Assembly: GCA_003118195.1 (NCBI GenBank)
Contig: BEXV01000332.1
Location: forward strand, 87,874 to 151,873
Direction: 5' to 3'
Length of the DNA: 64,000 nt
From: Hemicentrotus pulcherrimus
Taxonomy: Eukaryota; Echinodermata; Echinoidea; Camarodonta; Strongylocentrotidae
Positions within the stretch are counted from its first letter, which is position 1, and every line of letters starts with the position of its first letter. Position numbers and translations under genes: made by a program. This document shows, piece after piece, positions 5,572 through 35,000 of the stretch. The notes under the pieces were generated by a model, which did no database searches, was not told the DNA's origin, and worked only from the letters and a program-made list of their open reading frames with translations.

Positions 5572-8500
5572 CTGATGCGCAGTGGATGTAAAGTAATTGA
5601 AAAGGGGCGGGGGCGTGAGGAAAGATAGAGAGGGAACAAAATAAAACGTTGATTCCATGACAATTGCTACATGTATATCTCATTTAATTAAAACCGATGA
5701 AGAAAAACAACTAAATATAATAACTCTATAAGTTTACACTATTATTATTATTATTATTATTAAATTAATAAGTTTGTAACTAAAGAACAGTTACATCCCT
5801 GCCAGTCATCTGCCTACAAAATATTATACGTAACCAAATCTGCCGCCACACTATATGCTATAAAAAATAGTCCACTGGTTAACCGAAAACTTTTCATCAA
5901 AGGGGCGTTTTTAAAATCATTATTATTCAAAGCCAATGCACATCAGGTTAACAAAAAAAATAATATTTCAATTTATTCGAAATTTTGAACGATCTTTATT
6001 CAAGCCCCATGAAAGCAAGTTGTACCTGCAGTAGTCTACGTCTGATACTCCATAACAGACGACATTATCACACACATCGAGGGCAAAGAGAACAGACATA
6101 TATCCAGTACTGAACCATGATTTAATCTCCGTTCTGAAACAAACAAAAACGCATTAAAATAATAATGGTGATACAAACAAATGCGACCAATGATTAGCCA
6201 ACGTTGAGTACTATACATGTATAAATGCATTGTAGTGAACCATGTTACAATAGAGTGAAAGCAGAAAAGACAAGAACATTATGGAAAGGTAAATTAAAGA
6301 ATAGAAATGAAAAAGAAAAACAAAAAGAAAAAAAAAAAAAAAACGGAAATCACACATTAAGGACACCCTAATTAAAAAGTGGTTATGAATCGACTACTGC
6401 ATGGGTAACACGATGCTAATGGCTTTACGTTAGGTCAATGATAACACATCTTCTTAGCTGGGTGATTGAATGATTTGCTATTCAATTTATATAATTTTGT
6501 TGGGTTTGTATTTACATTCCTTGACATATTTCTTTAGTTATATGTATATTCATTATTTTTTTTATTCGTTGATGTATTCATTTATATGATCATGCACTGT
6601 ATGCAGCAAAACTTGTTATTGTTTAAGATAGTTATTTACCTGTTTAATCCTGTTTCGTTCATAAATCTACTGTCCATGTCGTTGATCATATCATCAGTCT
6701 GGAAATAAAATTTTACTTTGGGAAAACGCGTGCTCAACCTCCTTGAAGTTTTGAAGACCTCGTGTGTAGTCCTGTTAATGGATTCCTTATAAAGCCAAGG
6801 AACATAAATAATCGAGGGTCTTGTATTCGGGCTCAACAGTATCTCACTCTGCCCAATCTTAGGAGTGAGGAGCCCCTGCTTGAAATTACTGTGGCCAATC
6901 ACACGTACTGTGGTGCGCATGCCCACATCGTCTATATGGTTGCGCACTGTGGCTGTGTTCTGTCTGATGACGCAGTCTGCTCTGTCGATCTCTCTTCCCA
7001 TGTTAGATCCTAGCAGATGGCCAGAACTGAAAACTAAGGCACAATGCTTACAGTGGAGATCCAGCTCCTTAGATAAGGTAGAGAGTTGAAGACGAGAGAG
7101 AAAAAAGAGGAAAAGTTTGAAAAGGATTATACCAAATTTTGTGAAATGTTATTTACTTGTATTTACTCGCCTATTAGTAATGAACAGACAAGAATAAACA
7201 TTTAGTTTCATAGTTAAGTAATGATATGATGATGATAATACGTACTACTAATAATAATTAAGGTAATAATTATATCAGCGATACAAACAATGATGATGAA
7301 TGGTTATATCAACAACACCTCCGACATTAATATAACTTTAGTTTCTTTGATAACATAATGATCCGCAATATGATCCATTCAGTAGGCCTATGTAATGAAT
7401 ATTGTAGGAGTTAATATATCCGGGTTCACAGGTCGCCTATATTTGATCTACAAATATAATGTTATTGTGATATAGTAATGTGATATAGTATTGTGCTCAA
7501 AACACAAAATAATATGAAGAAAATATTAAATATTATAAGCTTTTTATGCAAATAATTACGCAAATTAAAATCTCGTTGAAATGAAAGATTGTTTCCTTTT
7601 CATGTCCGAGCACTTGGCGTACGAATACACTTAAAGTAGTCACACCAAGAAGCAAAAGTGATTTGAACTGATGCAAAAATCATATCATTGCGAAGGGAAA
7701 GCCTTACTGATCAATTACAACAATTTTCCTCTTCAAAATATGTTTTGGGCCCGCAGAAATCAACTTTCAAAAATGTTAGTTTTGAGATCCAGATTCACTG
7801 CCTATTCGTATTTNATGTCTCTAAGCGCTTTACAAATATACTATTACCCCGGTCATTGGATATCTACAAATATAATATTATTGTGATATAGTAATGTGAT
7901 ATAGTATTGTGCTCAAAACACAAAATAATATGAAGAAAATATCAGTTTGAAAAATATCTTGGGACTTAATTTAAGACATGGATTCAAATAATTTTTGATT
8001 TGAACAAGAAATTATACAACTATGATATGCTTTTTTATGCAAATAATTACGCAAATTAAAATCTCGTTGAAATGAAAGATTGTTTCCTTTTCATGTCCGA
8101 GCACTTGGCGTACGATATACTTAAAGGGATCCGGTAACTTTCTTCAGATTCTGAAACAAAATTCTGGATTTAGCTCATGCTGCAATGATAATTATAAACC
8201 TTTAGGTCAGTCAGGAAGCCCATGACTTTTACTAGCCCATTGCCTGTATGATTATCAAGATATTTATAATTGAAATTACAAATTTTGAAAACCGTTTGCC
8301 AAACGGTTTTCATAATAATACTAATAATACATAACATTTATTAGGCGGTTAATACTGATGTTTCTAAGCGCACAGTGTTCTGATTAAGAGAGGACTATAA
8401 CCCGTTGAATTAAATTAGAAGAAAAAGCAACAATACAAAAGTAACATAGATAAGGTAAGAAAAACAGTGGCAATCAACTAACTAAAGACAAATATTGGGG

Positions 8501-12869: not shown

Positions 12870-14239
12870 TATAAATCAAGTTTATAGACACCAAAATAGA
12901 AGTGAAATATGATATTAGTTTTAGAAAGGAGACAACGAAAGAACGCGGAAGAGCACAAACATTTCGGCACAGGTAATGTTTAGATGGGGACAAATTATGT
13001 TAAGGTTCATATTTTGTACTGAGATTGATGGGTAGGGGGTTGAGGAGATGCTTAGACTGCATTAAATGCCCCCCCCCCTTTCCCATACACAGAGCGCCGC
13101 CTTCGTCCCGAAATTATGGTAAAAATCAAAAGAGCATTATTAGCTAAATACTGTACTGAGATGTAGGAATTTCGTCATGCTCAAAGTTCCATAAAATAGG
13201 CATCATTCCAAATTGAGGACAATTAAAATGACATCAACAATTTTGACATCTCAGACTCAAATGAAATCAAGTGTTCAGCTTTATACACCACCAAGTGCAC
13301 ACTCGCAAATTAAATGTAAAATGTTTATATAAATGCAAGTTGAAAGGGTCATTATCACAGTTTTACTGATACTATTGTATTATTTTTTGTATATAACCAT
13401 AGATTTATTCCAATAAATACGTAGATAAAATTTAAAGATGGCTTATATCCCATTCGCGACCGTGTAGCTACATGTATCAGAACGGAAGATTTGCGGCCTG
13501 CATGAGACTAAACAACTCCGATCACGAGGTCAAGAGCAAAGTTCATTTATGCTATTTAGTCGCTGGTGCATATGTTTTGATAAAACGAGTGAGTGCATAC
13601 TAGCAGGTACTCGTACATGTTCAGTATAACACACTGCGCAATATTGATTTCTGTGATTCCTCCTAAATCTCGCAGGCAGGTGAGTAGAATCAAATTAGGA
13701 AATCCTGAAATATCAAACATATGTGTCGATTATGTATTTACAACGTTTAATTGTGTAAGCTTAGGATGTAGACTAAAATGATAAGAGAGTGCAATGTTAT
13801 CCGGTTCATACATTTCAGGCATATATAGGTCGGGAGTTCATTGATTTGATCATCAGGGATCGATATACTTTATCTAGTTTGCATGCACAAAACCTTGTCA
13901 GTAGCCATGCATAACATAATATACGCCTTTGGTCTGCACGGTGAGACTATGCTAAAGGCAAGTTGCATAAATATGCTCTTTACCTTATCTGCCGCAGATA
14001 TGGCCAGAGACGGACGGAGTTAGGCTATTATCAAGGTTTTATGAATTGTTGTAAAGTGTCAAATAGAGTTTGTGCCTGCAGACTATACTCTATCACTTGC
14101 CCATGGTTAGAGTATAATTGTTCCTGTAGTCGCACTGATGATGTAAGTCGATCATAGAGTGGGTTCATGCAGACACAATGCATTTATTATTATGGCACCA
14201 GTTGTTTTAAAATGAAGTATAGAGCAACTGCACTTGTAG
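12870..14239. other. Intergenic, no gene seen
   Basis: AT-rich sequence with a short C run at about 13071. Both strands were examined and no coding homology or repeat was identified. Confidence 0.4.
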
Positions 14240-14242
14240 GCA

Positions 14243-15966
14243 GGACAGTACATAAATGCGTTGAATGGAGGCTATGCGATGTTGTTCTGGCTAGTCTTTC
14301 CTTCATGCCGATCTTAGGTTGAGTTCTGTGATGATAGATATTTCAGTCATGATTTTTTTCCCCTCTTTTCATTTCAGACGTGTTTATTCAATATAAAAAC
14401 AATAACATAATTTCGCTTACAATGCAGCAAACCGATGGAACATCAACAATACACAGATTATTTATTCAAATATAACTAAGCAAATTCGTAGGGAATTTCA
14501 TAGTTTGTACTTTCAAATGTTCGTTTATTTCTATTCTGTTAGTCATTTCTCAAATCAAATTAAAATCTCTATTATCGTACCCATACTCATTACGAAAATG
14601 ATCATTTTATAAATAGACCAAAAAGCAATCGTCAATATCAAATCGATTCGGTTTGCGAATTCATTTTGAGTAATAAAACAATATGTATCTCTATTTTAAG
14701 ATGAAAGCACATACAACCAAGTCCTTTAAATATTCCAAGAAGTTTTCATTTGCCTTACATGAAATGAAAGCATGAAGCACATCTTCAGTCTCTTTGCATT
14801 TTAAACAAAGGTCATCGTATGAGAGATCCCACTTGAACAGATTTTTACGAACTTGTAGCATATTATATAAAAGCTTGAAATTAAATTCACGTAGACGAAA
14901 TTATTTAATCCCAATCCAATCCCAATAACGTCCTTCTGCAAGACATCTTCCCAATACAAACAACATTTATTTGTTTCAATTTTGTCAAAACTTATCATAT
15001 TATACCACTGTTTACTTTTCAAAAAACTATAAACAGGCTTAGCTGATTTTCGAAATACAATGTGGGGCTTAAAGAAATTATGGTCTTTGCAACCCAAAGG
15101 TACCCTATGGTAATCATTTATCCAAATTTTTCGAATTGATTTTTGTAGCTTTGTATAGTCATTTACTGAAACAAAAGTACCATTTTTAAAGATATCATTT
15201 AAGTATATAATACCACTTTTATACCAGTCTTCATAAAATAACATTTTCTTTTCAAAAACAATATCTTGATTATACCATAAATATTTTCGTCGACATGTTT
15301 CTGTGTCTGACATTCAGCTGATGTGTATTTTTTATGAGGTACCATGCATGTTATATTTCTATGTAAAAATGTAGGACATTTCTAAGTTTTAAGAGATTTA
15401 AAGTATAATCAGTATAATTGCAATTCAGCAGTAGATGCAGGCTTTCCTTAACAGTCAAACCAATGTTTACACATATCTTTCCAATTTCCTTTTGTATTAT
15501 CTAAAAACATCCCAAGCCACTCCAGCCTAAAACTAAACATTTGCCTTTTAAAATCGACAATTCTTATCCCTCCTTTACAATAATCCTCAGTAATAATTCA
15601 TCGTTTTACCTTTTCAATTTTACTTTTCCAAAGCAATTTAAATATCAGGCTATTAAGTTTTATAAAAAAAGTAGACGGTATTGTATCAACAATCATTAAA
15701 TGTAAACTTGACTAATTGCAAGAGATTTAATAATAGTCAGTCTTCCAAACAAAGTCAGATTTCTTTTTCTCCAGTTATCTAGCAGTTTTTGCATTTCTTC
15801 TAATTTATTTTGCCAATCTATCTTTAAAGCACACTGCAGATCAGTTGCGATATGACGTCCTAAGTATTTTACTGGCTCATCTGTCCAATGTAAGCCAAAA
15901 CAAGATAACAACCATCGTTGGCAGGCTGTTCCAATCCAAATCAAGACAGTCTTTTCTCTATTTAAC
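14243..15966 (-). mobile_element. Tx1/L1-like LINE 3' end, copy 1, with flank
   Basis: The minus strand encodes the post-polymerase C-terminal part of a Tx1/L1-clade ORF2: LTIIKSLAIS, FIKLNSLIF, GGIRIVDFKRQ, then a region beginning MSDTETCRRKYLW. Several stops and frame breaks make it a dead copy. Element sequence runs from about 15966 (cut at the N) to about 14372, where a GAATAAA is seen near the 3' end. 14243-14365 is non-LINE flank also present beside copy 2. Confidence 0.8.
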
Positions 15967-15967
15967 N

Positions 15968-18070
15968 AAGGCAGGACAATACATAAATGCGTTGAATGGA
16001 GGCTATGCGATGTTGTTCTGGCTAGTCTTTCCTTCATGCCGATCTTAGGTTGAGTTCTATGATAATAGATATTTCATTCATGATTTTGTTTTCCCCTTTT
16101 CTTTTTAGACGTGTTTATTCAATATTCAAACAATAACATAATTTTGCTTACAATTCAGCAAATCAATGGAACATCAATAATACACAAATTATTTATTCAA
16201 ATATAACTAAGCTAATTCGCAGGGTATTTCATATTTTGTACTTTCAAATGTTCGTTTATTTCTATTCTGTTAGTCATTTCTCTCTTAAATAAATAAATCA
16301 AATTAAAATCTCTATTATCGTACCCATACTTATTACGAAAATAATCATTTTATAAATAGACCAAAATTAAAGCAATCTTCAATATCAAATCGATTCGGTT
16401 TGCGAATTAACTTTGAGCAATAAAACAAGATCTATCTCTATTTTAAGATGAAAGCACATAAAACTAAGTCCTTTAAATATTCAAAGAAGGTTTCATTTGA
16501 AAATGAAAGCATGAAGCACATATTCAGTCTTTTTGCATTTTAAACAAAGGTCATCGTATGAGAGATCCAACTTGAACAGATTTTTACGAACTGGTAGCAT
16601 ATTAAATAAAAGCTTGAAATTAAATTAACGTAGACGAAATTCTGTAATCCCAATCCAATCCCAATAACGTCCTTCTGCAAGACATCTTCCCAATATAAAC
16701 AACATTTATTTCTTTGAATTTGTTAAAAACTTAACATATTATACCACTGTTTACTACTCAAAAGACTATAAACAGGCTTACCTGATTTTCCAAATACAAT
16801 GTGGGGGTTAAAGAAATTAAGGTCTTTGAAACCCAAAGGTACCCTATGCTAATCATTTATCCAAATTTTTGGAATTGATTTTTGAAGCTTTGTATAGTCA
16901 TTTTCTGAAACAAAAGTACCATTTTTAAAGATATCACTTGAGTATATGATACCACTTTTATACCAGTCTTCATAAAATAACATTTTCTTTTCAAAAACAA
17001 TAATTTTTTATCTTGATTATACCATAAATATTTTCGTCGACATGTTTCTGTGTCTGACATTCAGCTGATGCGTATTTTTTTTATGAGGTACCATGCATGT
17101 AATATTTCTATTTAAAAATGTAGGACATTTCTAAGTTTTGAGAGATTTAAAGTATAATCAGTATAATTGCAATTCAGCAGTAGATGCAGCCCTCCCAAAC
17201 AGTCAAACCAATGTTTACACATATCTTTCCAATTTCCTTTTGTATTATCTAAAAACATCCCAAGCCATTCCAGCATAAAACTAAACATTTGCCTTTTAAC
17301 ATCGATCATTCTTATCCCTCCTTTACAATAATCCTCAGTAATAATTCATCGTTTTACCTTTTCAATTTTACTTTTCCAAAGAAATTTAAATATCAGGCTA
17401 TTAAGTTTTATCAAAAAAGTAGACGATATTGTATCAACAATCATTAAATGTATAACGTCACTAATTGCAAGTGATTTAATAATAGTCAGTCTTCCAAACA
17501 AAGTCTGGTTTCTTTTTCTCCAGTTATCTAGCAGTTTTAATCTATCTTTAAAGCACACTGCAGATCAGGTGCGATATGATGTCCTAAGTATTTTACTGGC
17601 TCATCTGTCCAATGTAAGCCAAAACAAGATAACGACCATCGTTGCCAGGCTGTTCCAATCCAAATAAAGACTTTTCTCTATTTCACTTCGGTCCTGCACC
17701 ATCGCCAAAAAACCTCTAATTCGATTAAAATATTTCCAAAATAATTTATATCAGATACATAAAACAAGGTGTCATCTGCATATTGCAGCAATTTCAGATC
17801 AATACCTTTATCATCAATATCTATACCTTTGATTTCTTTATTTTCTTTCACTTTATTTGCCATTAATTCTGCGGCCATTACAAACAATAAGGCCGAGAGA
17901 GGACACCCTTGGCGTATTCTTCTCAGAACATTAAAAGTTTCAGATATTAATCAACCATTTACAATTACAGAACTTGCAATATTAAAAGAATTGTCACCCA
18001 CTCCTGGAAAGCAGGCCCAAAATTAAATTTACTCAGACATTTTTTGATAAAAGTTACATCAATTACGTTA
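15968..18070 (-). mobile_element. Tx1/L1-like LINE 3' half, copy 2, with flank
   Basis: Nearly the same sequence as 14243-15966, including the non-LINE flank (15968-16090 matches 14243-14365), but extending further 5'. The extra part encodes reverse transcriptase: SKFNFGPAFQEW, RRIRQGCPLSALLFVMAAEL and the catalytic YADDT in LLQYADDTLFY (17678-17887). It is broken by frameshifts and stops. Its 5' end is lost at about 18070. Confidence 0.85.
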
Positions 18071-18705: not shown

Positions 18706-18970
18706 ATGGCGTCTCGAGTCGCTTTAATTACTGGATGTTCGTCTGGTATCGGGATGGAGACTGCTCTACGACTCGCCCGACGATCTCAAGATCCTATTAC
18801 CGTATATGCTACGATGAGGAACATGACGTCGAAGAACGACATCGAGCACCGAGCTGGTGATTGTCTGGGGAAGTGTTTATTCATACGAAGGTTGGATGTG
18901 ACGAAAGAGGACACGATTGTAAATGTTGTTTCTCACATCAAGTCAAAGCACGGGCGACTGGATATACTAG
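18706..18970 (+). CDS. RDH8/HSD17B1-like: Dehydrogenase exon 1
   Basis: ATG to CTAG|gtatgt, phase 1. It carries the TGxxxGIG cofactor motif and the RRLDVTKED segment that sets NADP specificity and the adenine pocket in this family. Confidence 0.92.
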
Positions 18971-21900
18971 GTATGTACTAGGTATGCACTATAAAAATAT
19001 AATGCAGTCGAGACAATATAAATTATACTCGACGATTTGATATTTCTGGAACTAACAATGTGTTCATTGCAAGGATAATTTTTTTTATTTTGTAGTATTT
19101 TTTAAATTGTCTTCATTTGAACCATGTTCATGACTATTGTACATCATTCAAATACAAATCATTTCAAATTACATTACATAACATGTAAAGTTCAAAATAT
19201 ACAGAATATACACAACTCAATTATTTCGAATGAAAAAACAAATCTTGTATTAATAACCCCCTTCCCCTAATTAAACCACAAAACAATGAGGAAACATAAC
19301 AGAAAAATATTAATACATCAGCGATACCACCAAACCAACCGAATCTTTGCAATTTAGCGGTTCGGGTAATTAGTTTTTTATGCTCACCCATAATTACAAG
19401 TTCAGCGACATCCCATTGAAACGCGTGTTAAACTTAATACACGCATTTCGATGGGATGTCGCTCACCCTATACTTGTGACTCGTCATTATGTGGACAAAT
19501 GTCTATACCCGACTCGTTGGGTATACTGACGAAACTGTTATCATGTATCAACTGCAGTTTTTCTTCTTTCTTTTTATTTTTTATTTTTTTTTTGCAATAG
19601 TAAACAACGCTGGGATAGCAGGACCTTGTATTTTGGAAGCGACAGATCTTGACATATTCAGAAAAATGTTCGAAACTAACTTCTTTGGCGTGGTTCGCCT
19701 GACACAGGAAGTACTTCCCATCATGAAGTCTCAGAGGTCAGGCAGAATCGTCAATATTAGCTCCATAGCAGGTTTCGCAGGTAATTGTTATACTTTAGTT
19801 AATTCATTAATTCTTGTTAATCTACCAGAGTGAAAACGATATATATGATTTTATGCTGATAGGCCTACATCTTTTTTTTCCAATAATGCTCAGTTTATTT
19901 AACAAAATAGTCTTGTAAACCAATTGAAATACATGTATTTGATATTGAATGAAGTCTGGATATTACCATCTACAAAATTACTTTAAAAGGCTATTCCTAA
20001 GATATTTTCACTATGTATAACGTATGATTTTTTTATCAGTATGAATAATGTATTGTGTTAATCGAAACTTTGTTTTAATGATGTAGTGTTTCTGACAATA
20101 ATATTTACCCCGAACATTGAAACTGATATATTGCAGGCAGCCAGGCACGTTTATCTATGTATAATCCTGAAATAGAAAGCGATATTCCTATCCGGTATTC
20201 TTTCGTGAAAGTGTTAGTACTTTCAATGCAGGTTTCCCGTTCTATGAGCTGTATGGATCTTCTAAATTTGCTCTTGAAGGATTCTCAGAAAGCTTGGCCA
20301 TGATCTGTAGACGATTCAATATATGGTAAGAATTAACCTAATGTATGATCGCTTTAATTTTGTTTTATTTTATCAAGACTACTGGTTATTTGTAACTTTA
20401 TCATTGTCATCATTATCGGACCTTTTATAAATACCGGCGCCATTTTTTTTTAATGGCAATGGCTCCAAAGAAAGGCAACGCTAAATATTTCCTCTTCTTA
20501 TATTTGTACATAATGCATGTGTACTTTAATTTCTATAGGCGGAAAATAAAACAAACCCAAGCTGAAACCCTGAAGTGAATGTTTTTGATCCCACATGAAG
20601 AATGTTTCGATAAATATTGTCACATTTGCTGTTCAATCCCACTCTCTTCGTGTACATGTAGATGAGTGGGAATCCGATTTTTGGAACTGCATCCACTCCA
20701 AACATATTGTGAAATCCACTCCAGACAGTGGTTCTAATTTCTCTTTTGACAGTGGATTCCACTATTCTAAGAGTGATTTTCCACTCAAAATCAAATTGAT
20801 TACTTTTATGACTCGTGATAAGAAGAGTGGATTTCGACTCGACATGTCAATCTATATAGAGACTACTAACTCTTTGATGTGTGATGCATTAATTGGTGTA
20901 AATATTCACAACTGTATGGTAATGCGACTAAAGCTAAAGTCTAATGTAACAATCTACACTTTCCTATTAATTGCAGGGGGTTATGGCGGTCCAACCAAGT
21001 CTGACAGTAGGGACTTTTAGATTTGCCGAACGACAACGTGGATTGCTACGATCGACGTCCTTTAATGCACTGCCTTGAATGGACTTCATACGTATCAGTC
21101 CACGCAAATCTAAAAGTCTCTAATGACTAAGTTCTAGTACGGTGTATTAATCTACACTATCCCGTTAATGTTACAGGGTGACGGCTATCGAACGGGTCCG
21201 ACTGCAACTATTAAGTTCGAGTACGATGTATTTATCTACATTTTCCCGTTAATGTTACAGGGTGACGACAGGGTGACGGCTATCCAACGGGTCCGACTGC
21301 GACTAAGTTCGAGTACGATCTACATTCTCCCGTTAATGTTACAGGGTGACGACAGGGTGACGGCTATCCAACGGGTCCGACACTGACTAAGTTCGAGTAC
21401 GATGTATTAATCTACATTATCCCGTTAATGTCCCAGGGTGACGGCTGTCCAACCGGGTCCTTCTGCGACTAAGTTCGAGTATGATGTATTAATCTACACT
21501 CTCTCGTTAGGTGCTGGAATTTAGGCATCGCCCAGCAATTAGGTCGGTGCCCCGGCGCCGACCGCCCAGGCACCGAGCGTATATTGGGCGGCGCGTGAAA
21601 AGTGAGCAGGCGCCGCCCAAATTTTAACTCCGCGCTAAAACTTCAGCGGCGACCGAGCGATGCCCTAAAAACGAGCGGTGCCTGGGCGGCCGCCGCTCGG
21701 TGGCNNNNNNNNNNNNNNNNNNNNNNNNNNNNNNNNNNNNNNNNNNNNNNNNNNNNNNNNNNNNNNNNNNNNNNNNNNNNNNNNNNNNNNNNNNNNNNNN
21801 NNNNNNNNNNNNNNNNNNNNNNNNNNNNNNNNNNNNNNNNNNNNNNNNNNNNNNNNNNNNNNNNNNNNNNNNNNNNNNNNNNNNNNNNNNNNNNNNNNNN

Positions 21901-23845
21901 NNNNNNNNNNNNNNNNNNNNNNNNNNNNNNNNNNNNNNNNNNNNNNNNNNNNNNNNNNNNNNNNNNNNNNNNNNNNNNNNNNNNNNNNNNNNNNNNNNNN
22001 NNNNNNNNNNNNNNNNNNNNNNNNNNNNNNNNNNNNNNNNNNNNNNNNNNNNNNNNNNNNNNNNNNNNNNNNNNNNNNNNNNNNNNNNNNNNNNNNNNNN
22101 NNNNNNNNNNNNNNNNNNNNNNNNNNNNNNNNNNNNNNNNNNNNNNNNNNNNNNNNNNNNNNNNNNNNNNNNNNNNNNNNNNNNNNNNNNNNNNNNNNNN
22201 NNNNNNNNNNNNNNNNNNNNNNNNNNNNNNNNNNNNNNNNNNNNNNNNNNNNNNNNNNNNNNNNNNNNNNNNNNNNNNNNNNNNNNNNNNNNNNNNNNNN
22301 NNNNNNNNNNNNNNNNNNNNNNNNNNNNNNGGCCGCCGAGCAGGCTACTTTTGGGTAATGTGACCATAGCATTAGGCATCGCCCAGCAATTAGGTCGGTG
22401 CCCGGACGGCGACCGCCCAGGCACCGAGCGTATTTTGGGCGGCGAATGAAAAGTGAGCAGGCACCGCCCAAATTTTAACTCCGAGCTTAAACTTCAATGG
22501 CGACCTAAAAACGAGCGGTGCCTGGGCGGCCGCCGCCGGGCAGAATTGGTTAAAAATTCGCCGCTCGGCCGCCGAGCAGGCTACTTTTGGGTAATGTGAC
22601 CATAGCATTAGCTCTACAATTATGTATTTCTATGTTCTTCCTTTGACTTATCCTCTTCTCTTTCCTCATGTATTTTCTTGTTTTTCCTTCTCCATATCCT
22701 CTCCACTATATCCTCGTTTTCCACTTTCTATTATCTTCCCTTCCCTGGGTGTACGTGATTGTAATAGTGCGCTGACGACTTATACTCTTTCACCAGAGCA
22801 CTTCTTGGATTTTTTCGCGAAAATTGCAGTTGTGTAAAAAAAAAAAAAAAATATGCGCCTCCCGTTATTAAAATTACAGGGTGACGGCTGTTCAACCGGG
22901 TCTCACTGCGACTTCAGCCTTTTCACACACAGCTAAAATACATTCTATCTAGAGATGATTAGTTTAAATGTGTTTAACTCAACAGTTTTAAACATGTTTA
23001 CAGAAAATTTAAACGATGTTCGGATAGATACGAAGTCGCAATTCATACGCCCCTCAAGGCAGGCTGCAGATACGAAGTTCGTATCTAGAGAGCTTGACTT
23101 TTTGTGTGTGAAAGGTTTAAACGTTTTTTAAACTGAATGAAGCGTGCGCTTTGTTTGATATGACATGACCTTCAAAGCGCAATGGCACTACTAGGCATTT
23201 TAAGAGCAGTAGTTAATACGATGTATTATTAATCTTCACTCTTCAGTTCATGTTACAGGGTGACGGTTGTCCAACGGGTCCGACTGCCACTAAGTTCGGG
23301 TACGATGTATTAATCTACACGCTTCCGTTAATGTTACAGGGTGACGGTTGTCCAACGGGTCCGACTGCCACTCGAGTACGATGTATTAATCTACACGCTT
23401 CCGTTAATGTTACAGGGTGACGGTTGTCCAACGGGTCCGACTGCCACTAAGTTCGAGTACGATGTATTAATCTACACGCTTCCGTTAATGTTACAGGGTA
23501 ACGGCTGTCCAACCGGGTCCTACTGCGACTAAGGTGGAGCACAATACAGACATAACCGATGATCTGATGGCACAGATGGAGGATGAGAGAGTGGATCCTG
23601 AAACAAGGAAATACTTCAGCGATCGTGTTAAGATGAGGAAGGATGCTCTAAAAGACATCTCCCAACCAGTAGAAGAGGTTGTCGACGTCATTGAAAGAAT
23701 CATCGACGACGAGAAACCCTTGCTACGATATCAGACGAGTAAAGCTTCGAGGGAGATGGCTAGAGTTAGATCTCAAGATCCTACTGGAGATACTTGGATT
23801 GAGAAAAATCTAAAGACTGGGTCGTATCATGATGTAAACGAATAG
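18706..23845 (+). CDS. RDH8/HSD17B1-like: RDH8/HSD17B1-like short-chain dehydrogenase (295 aa)
   Basis: Four exons (18706-18970, 19601-19780, 20232-20325, 23497-23845) join in phase to 888 nt. The Rossmann NADP-binding motif is TGCSSGIG at residues 9-16. The product also has LDVT, VNNAG, the catalytic serine in NISSIAG and the catalytic YGSSK (Y-x-x-x-K). QPGPTATKVE follows, as in the retinol dehydrogenase 8 / 17-beta-HSD type 1 branch. These enzymes oxidise or reduce retinoids or 17-position steroids with NADP(H); the substrate here cannot be told from sequence. The length is close to human RDH8 (311). The start codon is supported by the MASRVALITG opening. The last intron is 3.2 kb and contains repeated copies of the exon-4 acceptor. 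Confidence 0.92.
18971..19600 (+). other. Dehydrogenase intron 1 with a strong hairpin
   Basis: Contains a near-perfect inverted repeat at 19404-19463: AGCGACATCCCATTGAAACG against CATTTCGATGGGATGTCGCT, with a short AT-rich loop. The remainder is AT-rich. Confidence 0.7.
19601..19780 (+). CDS. RDH8/HSD17B1-like: Dehydrogenase exon 2
   Basis: Acceptor tttgcaatag after a long T-rich tract, donor TTCGCAG|gtaatt. It encodes VNNAGIAGP, ETNFFGVVRLTQEVLP, and GRIVNISSIAG with the catalytic serine. Confidence 0.92.
20232..20325 (+). CDS. RDH8/HSD17B1-like: Dehydrogenase exon 3
   Basis: Acceptor tttcaatgcag, donor ATATG|gtaaga. Encodes FPFYELYGSSKFALEGFSES with the active-site Tyr and Lys. It ends inside a Trp codon that exon 4 completes. 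Confidence 0.92.
20326..20937 (+). other. Dehydrogenase intron 3, 5' part
   Basis: Mostly unremarkable. Several short inverted phrases built on GTGGATT/AATCCAC occur at 20680-20840. No coding homology. Confidence 0.4.
20938..21511 (+). repeat. Tandem array of exon-4 acceptor units, left cluster
   Basis: Units of about 81-92 bp each contain a branch/pyrimidine region (TCTACA...CCCGTTAATG), a TTACAG or similar AG, and a copy of the first 35-40 bases of exon 4 (GGTGACGGCTATCCAACGGG). AG sites fall at 20976, 21176, 21260 (and 21271), 21344 (and 21355) and 21436. Most copies read CCAACGGG where exon 4 has CCAACCGGG, and so are shifted by one base. Confidence 0.85.
21008..21122. mobile_element. 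Small 115-bp inverted-repeat element
   Basis: Ends TAGGGACTTTTAGATTTGC and GCAAATCTAAAAGTCTCTA are inverted over 19 bp with one mismatch. It splits one unit of the acceptor array between exon-like TCTGAC and the continuing TGACTAAGTTC. It is probably a tiny MITE. Confidence 0.6.
21516..22612. repeat. GC-rich fold-back repeat spanning an N gap
   Basis: A unit of about 240 bp (complete at 22371-22611, partial before the gap) contains GCATCGCCCAGCAATTAGG, CCGCCCAGGCACCGAGCG and, inverted, GAGCGGTGCCTGGGCGG. The 21705-22330 Ns lie between copies. GC content is strikingly higher than in the surrounding DNA, and internal inverted repeats are dense, which explains the assembly failure. No coding content; the long frames called across the Ns are artefacts. 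Confidence 0.75.
22860..23496 (+). repeat. Tandem array of exon-4 acceptor units, right cluster
   Basis: AG sites at 22879, 23258, 23339, 23415 and the functional 23496. The last three intervals are 81, 76 and 81 bp. The first unit (22860-22914) is separated from the next by about 310 bp of foreign sequence (22915-23220). Confidence 0.85.
22915..23116. mobile_element. Possible small inverted-repeat insertion
   Basis: Starts CAGCCTTTTCACACACA and ends near TGTGTGTGAAAGG, an imperfect inversion. It interrupts one acceptor unit. No target duplication was confirmed. Confidence 0.3.
23497..23845 (+). CDS. RDH8/HSD17B1-like: Dehydrogenase terminal exon 4
   Basis: Acceptor aatgttacag at 23496. The exon starts with the last base of the Trp codon, then VTAVQPGPTATKVE. 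A helical acidic segment follows, then LLRYQTSKAS and DPTGDTW, ending in TAG at 23843-23845. Among ten acceptor-like sites in the intron this is the only one followed by a long open frame in phase. Confidence 0.92.
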
Positions 23846-24162: not shown

Positions 24163-24475
24163 TCTCTAAGTGATTTATAAATATATTATTACCCCGGTCT
24201 GTGGATTCAGGCTTGCCCACACACAATAAATGCCCCTCATCCACTCCCTGGGGAGCATTTCAGACAGGCACCATTCTACAGATTCTCACCACACTGAGCA
24301 AACTGCAATAACATTTGTGTCCGACCGGGTACCCATTTTCAACCTGGGTGGAGAGCGGCAAATGTGGATCAATATCTTGCCAAAGGACGTTAGTGCCGAG
24401 TTTAGATTCGAACCCTCGACATTTGTATTGAGAGTGAAGTGAATAAACCACTTTACCACCATACATCTACACTGG
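24163..24475 (-). repeat. tRNA-derived SINE, near full length
   Basis: The minus strand has an A-box-like GGTGGTAAAGTGGTT (24446-24460), a B box GGGTTCGAATCT (24414-24425), then a body containing CGTCCTTTGGCAAGATATTG, CCACCCAGGTTG and GGGTACCCGGTCGG. The distal part (GCTCCCCAGGGAGTGGATG, AATAATATATTTATAAATCA) also occurs alone at 7817 and 18293. It lies downstream of the dehydrogenase stop. Confidence 0.75.
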
Positions 24476-29129: not shown

Positions 29130-32010
29130 TCAAAATTTCTCCGGTGATCTAGCTTTGTGCTCCCCATTCCTTCTCCAATCAGACAGGACGTCTTGGTCGC
29201 TATGCGCCCTCACCGGTGACCTGCGTGCCTCCCTCCTGCTCCGCTCTTCCCTGCAATCAAGTAGAGCTGTTTCGGACCCAGACCTTGTTTCGAATCGAAG
29301 GATCTTCTCTGCTTGTTTGGAATGCGGTTTCTGGTGCCTCTTCTCTAACTTCTCGAAATCTATAGGTCGTACATACCTGCCTTGGTGAAAGGTTTGTTGA
29401 TATTCTGGATGATCACGAATTGGTTCGTCGCTTCGCAAGAGACACTCCTCGCTAAATGGTCGACTAACACCTCCAAAGGTGTCGTGCTTCTTGAGCCGAT
29501 GTCGAGGAGAAGAACTAGCAGATCTTCCCATTCCCCGGTTTCCAGGCACTTGCAGAAAATCTCTCCTTCCGTCCAGTGATTCGTGGTAACCTCGATCACC
29601 TCTGTCCATACTAAGGCTCTCCATACTTCGCCGAGGCCTTGTTGGTGATTTAGAAGCCCTATAGTGAGCGTTAATTGACCCTCGACCAGGCGACACAGCC
29701 CTTCCTGGTAATTCTCCTCTGTTTGGACTGGGATCATAGAACCGTTGATGCCTTCTGCTTCGAGGGCTACGAGACCGTTCTTCTGATCGAGCCGGTCGAG
29801 CAAAATCCTCAGGCGGAGGTCTCCTACCAGGGGATACTGGTAAGGGATCCTTGGGCCGTGCTGGTAATCTGTCATCCCTTTCTGGTGTGTGTTGTTGATC
29901 ATCTGGTGTTTCGTATCCTCCTACAAGGATGGTTGGTGGTTCGAGGGTTTGTCTGTCTCGTAGATCTCTAAGATCTAAAGAATGCCTGGAAGGAATGCTT
30001 TCTCTTCTCGTACGTTTTATCTCATCGTCGATCTCGCATGTATCAGCACTGTAGGCAGTGACATTACCATCATGGAAAGAAGCCGCTCCCGCTCGCCGAA
30101 TCTGGGGCGACCTCTTAACCAATCGGAAAGCGCTTCTTCTGTTCTTGACGTCTTCTAACCTAGGAGGCAAGTCGAGTGAAGGAGTCTTTTCAGGTCGATC
30201 ATAATGTTTGAAAGGCGTAGTTGAATGGGATTTGGGATCACCAGTTGGTGATGGTTCTCTAGAGGGTTCACGAGAAGGTTCACGTGATGCTTCTCTCGAT
30301 GCTTCACGGGATGCCTCACGGGAAGGTTCCCTAGAAGATTTCGACTCGGGTGATCCCTCTGTACTATAGGCCTTCTTCCTTTCCTGTCGCAAATATTCTT
30401 CTTCGATGCTATCCTGAGATATAAGCGATTTTGTTCTACCGGTACCAGGCAAGAGAGTAGTCAGCCGATCTTTAGCGGAGCTTTCACCACAGGTTCGTGA
30501 ATCGAAACTGATACTCCTAGGCTCATTACCCCCTTGACTACATAACACCTTGGTGGGATATTCTAACATAGAATCACTATGCTGTTTATTATGAAGCTGT
30601 AATCTATGGCTTCTATATGGACGAGATCTTCTAGAATTGGTATCAAAGAGAACATCTTGTTTTATAAACTCTTTGAACAAGGCATCAGTTTTCTCATCTA
30701 TACTATAATCTCTACCTTTAGGGTAACAACTTAGTCCATCCTCTCTGGACCTAGCTAGAGGACTTGTACGACGGATCTTCCTCTCACGCAGCGCCCCTCG
30801 TCTCTCGTTTAACGTTTGATCACTCTCTTTCCCGGTTGTGACAGTGGATTCAGTTCCAGACGTTTCAGTTTCTTCTTCAGGAAAGCTAAAACTGCCAAAT
30901 ATAGCTTCCTCTCTACCAGCTACAAATTCTCGTCGTTTTGTAGACGCAGTACGGCGATCACCTCTATTACGTGTCAAAGGCTTGCTGTCTTCACTAGCTC
31001 GTCCTACAACAGCATTCACCATAGGATTGTCTACTGTCGGACTACTACTATCACTTGACATGGTAAAGGTCTGTGCACTTTCAAAGCTCGTGCTTTCGTG
31101 ATCACTGGCTGCAAACATTTGACGTCGTTTCCATTCAGTCTCTGTCTTTTGTTCAATGGATGCATAGCCGCTGTCACCGTGCATTCTACGAAGATTCTTC
31201 GGACCATCTTTCCCCGAACCACCACTGTCCCGATCTCGCTCAGATATGTCCGACTCCTCAGCGCTAATACTACTCACAGCTTGCTCGAAGCTATCATCAA
31301 TACCACTCTTGCCATCACTCTTCTCCTGCCCACTACTCTCTTCCTCCAGAGTTGGACTCCTCAGGAGAGGAGGTAGCATGTTTTCTTCAACGTTTGCTCC
31401 TATCACAGTTGGATCATACTCAGACGATCCTGATTCTTCAGACGAATGCTGCATCTCGAGTGTTGACCTCAGCTGCCAAAGGTCTTTGTATTCACTCGCT
31501 CTCACGGTTTGGTTCTTAACCTCTTCCCTTGGACCGTGGATGGGTTCCTTTAGCCCAACAGGAGGGTGTGGATGTCTTTCAGCATCCGGTGCGTCTTTTC
31601 GTCTCGTTCGAGACGGTGAACGATCTCCCTTGATAGGCACTTTGTCATCTGCGCTTCTGTCGCGTTCTCTCTTTCCTCCACCCTCCCTAATAGGGCTCCT
31701 CTGTCGTTCATCAATATGTCTTTTTTGGCTGATGTCACCTTTGCTGTTCTTGAAATCGGGTGATTTGGCTACATGGTCATTGACAGGGTGGTTATGGACT
31801 TGGACATGAACTGTAAGAGAATCACCAGTCTTGGTTCCTTCGCTCTTGACAACCTCTCCTGGATTAAGCAGAGTCCTGGGTGACTTTCCTCGGTATCGAC
31901 CTACACGCTCAAACTCATCGACGGGAGGTGGATGCAAAGGACTGACGTCACCATGACGTCTCATCACAACCTGAGCGTTGTCCGATACGTCACCGTTATG
32001 ATCGCAATAT
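29130..32010 (-). CDS. Membrane protein terminal exon 6 (960 codons incl. stop)
   Basis: Acceptor ttttttctccag, first residues YCDHNGDVSDNAQVV, TGA at 29130. One uninterrupted 2.9-kb exon encoding most of the cytoplasmic tail. It has Arg/Asp/Ser-rich blocks (ERDRSADDKVP, REASREASREPSRE, RSPRSRRHQRFYD), acidic Ser clusters that look like casein-kinase sites, and a more structured end (YVRPIDFEKLEKRHQK, AEKILRFETRSGSE). Long open frames on the opposite strand here are shadows. Confidence 0.93.
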
Positions 32011-35000
32011 CTGGAGAAAAAAATGAGTATTAAAAATGTGAGTCATAATAGCCTGGGCACATAAAAACATGAAATGTATTTTGACCAAGCAAACATGTTT
32101 AATACATTTGAGATTTAAGATATGTCAAAATGTGAGGCGTGTTGTGATCTATATTCGGTGGACAGCTTTTACCACTTTTGTTTATTCCTAATATGCCCTT
32201 AAAATACGGGGTGTGGGTAGGATTAGCAGGAATATAAGTTGAAGAAAAGATGTCAGTGAGATTATTTGGTTGATCTGTGTGTGTCTATTTTCTCATCAGA
32301 GAGCGAAATAATGGGAATTATACAGGAGAAAAACTAAACAAAAACACGATTTCAAAGACTTTCTAGAAGCCAACTCAATACAGTTTCAATACCCCCATTG
32401 TAATTCCGATAGAGACCGGCCTTGTTCAAATGCCGTTGTGATTTCCTTACATTTGAAAGGGTGGTGGACAGGGCTATTGATTGCCTTTAAAAGGTTAAAT
32501 TGTTAAAGGTATTACAAAGTTTTGGGAAATTTTGAAAAATGGGTGGATAGTGATTCTTTACAATTTTGATATAATTGGATGCCCCTGTGGATGTATCAAA
32601 AGCACTAGAAATTTTAGACCCTAAAACACTTCTGCTTTCCAGAAAAAATTGAATATAGAGATTTATCGGTGCTCCCGATAAATGTTTAAAAAAGCTTCTA
32701 CGGCCGTACAATGGTAGCTACGACCATGAAAATCTCAGAATATGTAGTTGTGGTATATAATTTCCGAACGGGAATAGCTGATCGGTCGATTTTAGTCAAT
32801 AAACGTTGTTTTATAGCTTAATTGATATCTTGACCTTGAGAGGGAGCTATTCAATATAAAGTGTTTACTATTTACAATTTCATAACTTTAGAGTGGATTT
32901 CGACCGCGACAACAATCACTGAATAATATAGGATCGCATATGCTTCAAATATGTTCATTTGAACCAAATTTATGACCCCATACCAAAACTTTGTATTACC
33001 TTTAACGTCTTTGAGAACACCAACAAAAGGCAAAAACAGTCAGATGAAGGAATTAAAAGGGATGAAAATTGAGAAGAAACAAGAAGAACAAGAAGAAGAA
33101 AAAAAGAAGGAGGAGGAGAAGAAGAAGAAGAAGAAGAAGAAGAAGAGGTAGCTACCTGTTATCTCTGTCTGAGATTGAGAAGGAAACCTCTCTACTCCTA
33201 GATGTATGATTCGAGCATGGTGTACGGGGTGTGTCCATACCCTCTAGATTCTCACTATCGCACTCTGTGATCTCACCTAGGGTACATGTAGGGGGTATGT
33301 ATGCAGGTGGGCTCCAACGATTCTCTCCTGTAATAACAACCAAATAAATACGTTCAGTAAAATTGTTGAAAAGTTTAAAGACTCCGATTTTTTTAAATGA
33401 CGATCCATAATGAGAAAATTAATGGAAAATGAAGAGACAAACAAGAATTAGCATTCACTAGCATAACACGGCTTATTATAACATCATCAAAATGCCTATA
33501 CAAACACCTATGACATATGAATAGAGCGGCAAATACTTGTACATAAAAACAAACAAAAAATGAGAAAAGAAAGTGTAAATGTAAGATTGATTATCATCTG
33601 GACCCAGTGATGGCAACGAAGCGCACTAAATGTTATCAGATACGAACATCATATAAACAAGCGAAGATATACATGTAGTCATCGTTTTAGCAGTAATATA
33701 ATATATGACTAGTGCCATCTACGACATCGAATTAACATTTGTCCTCCATTGAAATCTTAGATTTACTGGCATTTCCATCGTTGGTTGAAAGGTGAAAGCC
33801 CATAAAAACAAGGAATGCAAGTGAACTGTGATTGCATTAAAACATGTAAAGCTAAGCTCCTATATAAAGCTTTTGCAATGTTTGTGTAAATAACAAAGCA
33901 CTCTACAGAATAGCTTTTGTTTTCCTTTGGTTTGATAACGATAATAATTATGATTGAAGACGATATGAAATGAAAAATAATGCTGAGATTGAAAGCATAA
34001 CACGACACTGAAGTGTTGATTCCTACCTAAAACATTATTTAAAACTGTTATCGTGTTCTATGAACAGTGATGACGCAAAGCGTCTGAGTTCTGAATCGCT
34101 CAGATAATGTTTCGACGTGATGATAAAATATTCTTACCTTCATCTTCGACGAGTTTTTCAGCTGTTTCACCATCTCCGTTAGCCGCTCCATCTTCACGGA
34201 GTAACCTATTAGAAGGGGATAGAGATTCGAAAGGAGAGAAGGGAAGAGAGAGAGGGTTGGAGGGAGAGAGATAGAGAAAGAAAAGGAAACGGAGAGATGA
34301 GAGAACGTTTAAAGCAACATGATATATGTAGTTGGTATCCATGTGTATTGCATCATAATAAGATGACTCTAGATTTGGTTGAATTAGCAATAATGTGTCT
34401 GTGTGTAAATGTCTCGGAAGCAGCGAACCCGTGGTCCCACAAGAAAATACTCAACTTATTCAGTGCAAACGAAATTATGAGTCCCTTGCATTTAACAATC
34501 AGAGTAATGAATATGTTTTTTATCAATACACGCAAGAAGAAGACAAACAAGACGACGAAGATGGGGGATGATGAAAGAAGGAAGGGAAACAATTAAAATC
34601 ACCAAAGAAGAATACAGGGGTGTTTAACAAAGTTCCTGAGGTGAACTTATCTCTGAGTTGGACTTAACAATTATTATGGAAAGCCGTTAGCATTTTTGAA
34701 AATATTGTGTTAAATTATTTTAATGGGCATAAAATGTTGATTCAATTCATTCATATTTTGTATTATCAAGGAGATTTTATGTTCTTGATATGGAATTTAT
34801 GAAAAGTCTAAAAAAAAAAATTTTTGCTTTTGAATATAGTTTAATTTAAGGCTACAAATGGTTCTCAGTAATCTTTTAGTCCAACGTAGAGTTAAGTTCG
34901 ACTTAGGATCTTGGGGGGAATAGGTACTTCCATTAGAAATATGTCATAGAGGAGAAAACATGAATGATAGGAAAATCAAGGATGAAGAAAATCTAGAAGC

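Follow-up and report, generated by a model that had tools for sequence, protein, structure and literature searches.

The RDH8-type gene and its third intron

We identified a four-exon gene for an RDH8-type short-chain dehydrogenase (SDR) in the sea urchin Hemicentrotus pulcherrimus, the third intron of which contains a tandem array of acceptor-like units. Positions are those of the window, the whole stretch of 64,000 nucleotides that was analysed. The gene lies on the plus strand, with exon 1 (ATG to donor) at 18706..18970, exon 2 at 19601..19780, exon 3 at 20232..20325 and exon 4, the last coding exon, at 23497..23845 through the stop codon. Joined together, the exons encode a protein of 295 amino acids. 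Intron 3 is 3.2 kb long and its acceptor AG ends at 23496. Exon 4 measures 349 nt to the stop, and a candidate AATAAA is found 3' of it at 24225. The protein matches PF00106 (E 2.2e-51) and contains, in alignment with its relatives, the TGxxxGIG and YxxxK motifs of SDR proteins; these features place it in the RDH8/17beta-HSD1-type class, and its best relatives with a solved structure are 17beta-HSD1 proteins. Among the best 120 of 7,869 matches (8,000 candidates scored), the host protein is 93% identical to P0001, 91% identical to RDH8 of S. purpuratus (P0002) and 80% identical to an RDH8-like protein of Lytechinus pictus (P0003). All three are continuous across the intron 3/exon 4 junction in the alignment, without an insert. 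P0001 is probably the product of a spliced transcript, since its contig, at 1,094 bases, could not accommodate a gene with introns of this size. The coding frame of the host gene is unbroken across all 295 amino acids and the SDR motifs are retained, which does not give the impression of a decaying gene.

The tandem array in intron 3

An earlier note on this DNA had described ten AG sites in intron 3, all in the same context and each followed by a copy of the start of exon 4. All ten are present (20976, 21176, 21260, 21344, 21436, 22879, 23258, 23339, 23415 and 23496), and the count was slightly too low: two more AGs, 21271 and 21355, result from an 11-bp internal duplication, which brings the total to 12 copy AGs, namely the real acceptor 23496 and 11 decoys. 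A profile built from seven units identified 11 copies across the 64 kb of the window. They all lie on the plus strand within 20943-23533 and have E values of 9.4e-6 or better; the next match had an E value of 2.5, and the best match in five block-shuffled windows had an E value of 0.21. The array in intron 3 is real and far above chance. TRF reported a period of 81 (3.8 copies, score 507) and a period of 84 (2 copies, score 312). The units are arranged head to tail, are within the range of some 10-100 bp of a minisatellite, carry an AG in 10 of 11 cases and span the splice site as well as exon sequence, as a minisatellite at an exon-intron border does. A regular unit of 81 bp, as proposed earlier, is not what was found, as the spacings are 84, 84 and 92 on the left and 81, 76 and 81 beside the exon. 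That the unit is a multiple of three is coincidental, because 81 already counts the lost C.

The array starts with a decayed copy at 20943..21005 (AG 20976), followed by a copy at 21131..21210 (AG 21176), two copies with the identical internal duplication at 21215..21307 (AGs 21260 and 21271) and 21307..21390 (AGs 21344 and 21355), and a copy at 21391..21473 (AG 21436). The next unit (21473..21509) is truncated, having been cut by an insert before its AG. A second decayed copy at 22860..22913 (AG 22879) precedes the right-hand group, which consists of units at 23215..23294 (AG 23258), 23294..23372 (AG 23339), 23372..23451 (AG 23415) and 23451..23533, the last of which holds the real acceptor AG 23496 and the start of exon 4. 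The repeated units listed in the earlier inventory are real; missing from it were the truncated unit and an older, decayed exon-4 fragment on the plus strand to the left of the array (20909..20932). This fragment is identical to exon 4 at 17 of 24 letters, and none of 61,127 other positions scores as high.

Directly after the AG, eight decoys read GGTGACG and the real site reads GGTAACGG. A copy of the exon 4 start indeed follows the AG in eight decoys, which are identical to the first 37 nt of the real exon at 30-35 positions (counted after the second AG for 21260 and 21344); the 20976 copy has decayed (GGGGTTATGGCGG), and only 24 of the 37 exon letters can be aligned to it with free end gaps. 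The loss of one C that had been noted for most upstream copies applies to six of nine. The C is kept in the copy at 21436, which matches the real exon at 35 of 37 positions and has the frame-keeping CCAACCGGG, and in the copy at 22879, which keeps CAACCGGG; the 20976 copy instead reads CCAACCAAG. Beyond the copied 37 nt, the next 15 nt match at 9 positions, which is reached by 280 of 61,173 15-mers in the window (67 with transitions given half weight) and, among the in-frame 15-mers of the host gene, by 5 of 291, itself included. Over 18 nt past position 37 the match is 9/18, reached by 2.8% of 20,000 draws. Six differences in 15 nt are odd beside the 2-7 differences in the preceding 37.

The array is interrupted at several points. 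At the first decayed copy lies a MITE-like insert on the plus strand (21005..21125) with 22-nt terminal inverted repeats (TIRs) that are 91% complementary. The truncated unit is followed by a GC-rich tandem element, also on the plus strand (21521..22611), which contains an assembly gap of 626 N (21705..22330) that is situated inside the intron and was absent from the earlier note. Alignment of its parts over 176 bases gives 87.5% identity, an exact repeat of a 45-bp piece has a spacing of 236 bp, and internal inverted arms flank the gap; the element is likely to be an unresolved longer array. An unrelated stretch (22914..23214) with a perfect 11-nt inverted repeat (22921-22931 and 23103-23113) separates two of the units. 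Rfam gave no match at gathering level in the whole window. Because the inserts sit at the oldest copy, after the truncated unit and between units, the array is probably older than at least the TIR element and the GC-rich tandem element. The right end of the array appears to have been amplified more recently, and this is probable because, on the intron side, the units of 23339, 23415 and 23496 hardly differ.

The source of the unit was searched for in the genome (414 Mb, 4,189 contigs; match counts are lower bounds). A query of 624 bases comprising units and exon 4 matched at this locus only, with at least two matches (two candidates). With the host protein as a query at least 22 matches were obtained (34 candidates scored), and outside the locus the best exon was 62% identical. 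Since other loci match at 62% or less per exon, these comparisons indicate that the unit stems from the intron 3/exon 4 border of the host gene itself. Origin from a close paralogue was considered and rejected, the nearest other exons being just 46-62% identical. The earlier reading of the array, as a minisatellite derived from an exon-intron border and now presenting decoy 3' splice sites, agrees with the profile copies, the acceptor identity and the acceptor scores given below.

In a paralogue (locus L022 on contig C1704), exon 4 begins with GGTGACTACTATTCAACC and the acceptor is conventional, with a good pyrimidine tract. No copy of this acceptor was seen by eye in the 750 bases before its exon 4. 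GGTGAC is found in eight decoys and at the start of the paralogue's exon 4, and the real exon has GGTAAC, which is a synonymous change. When the last decoy was compared to the real unit, 0 of 44 intron positions and 5 of 37 exon positions differed (Fisher p 0.017, post hoc). A simple account of this pattern would be that unequal exchange homogenises the intron side and selection holds the coding side. Intron 3 of the paralogue contains a minisatellite as well (2007-2228 of L022), situated in these 750 bases, with a 26-bp unit and 8.5 copies, which by eye is unlike the paralogue's acceptor.

Splice signals and predicted products

From -20 to +3, two decoys, 23339 and 23415, show no difference from the real acceptor, and for 23415 the identity extends over all 44 intron letters up to the AG. 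A YTNAY branch-point-like motif starts at -30 in 7 of 10 sites. Splice sites were scored with approximate matrices that were not trained on sea urchin. The real acceptor scored 8.94, which ties it for ranks 8-10 among 111 AGs (20401-23500). Of the 11 decoy AGs, seven scored as high or higher by this approximate matrix; 21176, 22879, 21271 and 21355 scored lower, with 0.56 for each of the last two. The crudeness of the matrix shows in the acceptors of exons 2 and 3, at just 5.56 and 6.00, and in the high rank of AGs outside the copies (21569 first, 22579 fifth). As two decoys are identical to the real acceptor and seven score as high, the local sequence, judged from these comparisons, does not single out the real site among the copies. 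The real site is not weak by the matrix, so weakness cannot be invoked either way.

The full frame opens from 23496 alone among the 12 copy AGs, in agreement with the earlier statement that only the last AG leads into the real exon. The products predicted for the 11 decoy AGs stop at 184-243 amino acids. Every one of them lacks the real C-terminal part, and nine also lack the QPG motif, which is kept in the products of 21436 and 22879. All 11 end inside the extended last exon, with no known junction after the stop, and the decoys do not have the arrangement of poison exons in AS-NMD. Classical nonsense-mediated decay, which depends on the exon junction (EJC), is not expected for stops within the last exon, and thus is not expected for the decoy products. 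When the tail that the decoy encodes in one of these 11 products, that of 23339, was used as a query, no protein matched at E 10 or better (50 candidates). The regulated non-productive splicing that had been suggested for the array is therefore unsupported, while the observation and the proposed origin were right; the remark that the cell has to skip nine acceptors is an inference.

Two further uses of the repeated sites were considered. A ratchet point for recursive splicing consists of an acceptor directly followed by a donor, AG|GT, as defined in PMC8605326. Such points were rejected here, since GG comes after the AG at 12 of 12 sites; the donor-like G|GTGACG (score 6.3) is found one base downstream and would add one base per step. 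An array of cassette or mutually exclusive exons was rejected as a rule, two 12-nt pieces excepted. Among pieces of up to 400 nt there are 18 acceptor-donor pairs that are in frame and stop-free. The two exceptions, 21261-21272 and 21345-21356, run from AG to a donor-like aggGTGACG (donor score 6.3) and, as microexons, would preserve the frame. The donors of the other in-frame pairs score 3.72 or less; the gene's own donors score 7.71, 8.59 and 8.47 by the approximate matrix, and the strongest donor-like site, 23299 (7.79), belongs to no in-frame pair.

Acceptor choice and meaning of the array

We propose, with a probability of about 0.75, that the array is a minisatellite which arose from the intron 3/exon 4 border, was broken up by inserts and is passive, and that the true site wins by means of its complete exon. 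The border would have undergone tandem duplication and grown into a minisatellite within intron 3. A good unit has a branch-point-like motif some 27 nt ahead of the AG and further comprises a purine-interrupted pyrimidine tract, the AG itself and 37 nt or more of exon 4. Old copies would have decayed and been hit by inserts, and re-amplification of the right end would have given rise to the two acceptors that are identical to the real one. The copies would be by-products without a task, the array most likely having spread by accident as a repeat. Of all the acceptors, only the real one leads into the full terminal exon, with 349 nt to the stop and then the 3' end, which is probably why it is chosen; the full exon may carry enhancers that are absent from the 37-nt fragment. 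Recognition of the complete terminal exon would be the likeliest factor to decide acceptor choice. The sites lying 81 and 157 nt upstream would be expected to be used to some extent, yielding a truncated, probably dead enzyme.

When equal 3' splice sites compete, the upstream site is favoured, although significantly less so where long introns flank the exon and exon definition applies; the passages of PMC9225289 that describe this concern internal exons, not terminal ones. If the upstream-favouring rule applied, the host gene would fail unless exon definition rules here. The proximity rule, as given in these passages of PMC9225289, would favour an array that is leaky and unregulated, in which substantial use of decoys leaves the gene partly crippled in this species or allele, and by the approximate matrix the real site is not the strongest one; the intact frame of 295 amino acids and the kept SDR motifs argue against this, and we regard it as unlikely. 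It is unlikely, too, that the array is regulated, the number and use of the decoys tuning the amount of working enzyme through unproductive splicing or U2AF/U2 competition. Such a role would suit the fact that seven decoys equal or exceed the real site in score and two match it exactly, as well as the retention of the AG in all 10 complete copies, where harmful decoys might be expected to lose it. A calculation on AG retention gave p 0.023, a value not to be relied on, since two copies (20976 and 21344) had been misaligned and the copies are non-independent. The stops in the last exon, for which EJC-dependent decay is not expected, the 23339 tail without a match, and the decay and interruption of the old copies all speak against regulation. 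A copy-number rheostat, in which the number of near-identical acceptors sets by competition the share of transcripts that reach the productive acceptor, is very unlikely; if it were true, expansion and contraction of the minisatellite would change RDH8 output between individuals. An assembly artefact, in which repeats had been wrongly joined, or haplotypes set one after the other, around the 626-N gap, is extremely improbable. The gap does lie inside the intron and the assembly consists of 4,189 contigs, but the left and right parts of the array differ in flanks, inserts and sequence, the gap sits in a different element, the GC-rich tandem one, and the acceptors 23258, 23339, 23415 and 23496 are contiguous with exon 4 in a stretch (23215-23845) without any N.

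Minisatellites at exon borders are known, and the acceptor version is an unusual variant of them. In one system, as described in PMC4526556, a minisatellite of repeated splice sites lies at an exon border and two downstream repeat units act as splice donors; the likeness is in the repeated splice sites at the border, but donors are repeated there, and acceptors with a branch-point-like motif and exon start are repeated here. For human genes in segmental duplications, PMC2812944 reports internal tandem repeats at exon-intron boundaries, with 27 intron modifications. Minisatellite expansion at exon-intron boundaries is common to both cases, but those genes are paralogues differing in repeat number, whereas here there is no close paralogue and the acceptor module is present about 10 times inside an intron. 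Tandem duplication that copies splice signals is likewise the subject of PMC4974935; in contrast to that case, an existing intron gains extra acceptors here and no new intron position arises. In the literature searched, which left most subscription papers outside, no multi-copy acceptor array was found, and absence from print is not claimed.

The competing sites of Reed and Maniatis are said to have been exact duplicates in built globin genes. As outlined in the account of that work in PMC9225289, near-equal 3' sites competed for one donor, as they would here; unlike in that system, the sea urchin case is natural, has more than two sites and offers in each copy a short exon piece only. Work on the choice among equal 3' splice sites mostly uses built constructs with a small number of sites. 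Intron 3 provides a natural test in an intact gene with about 10 sites, two of which are identical to the real one over the window that is commonly scored and only the most distal of which gives the full protein, and its splicing bears on the question of proximity across the intron versus definition of the terminal exon as a whole. Should copy-number alleles exist, they would form a dose series.

Elsewhere in the window, a direct duplication of 1.7 kb (14238-15966 and 15969-17686, 91% identical) meets at a single N at 15967 and is retroelement-like by eye. On the minus strand, an open frame at 6636-7148 resembles, by its motif, a sialyltransferase exon, and a second open frame, of 970 amino acids, extends over 29130-32042.
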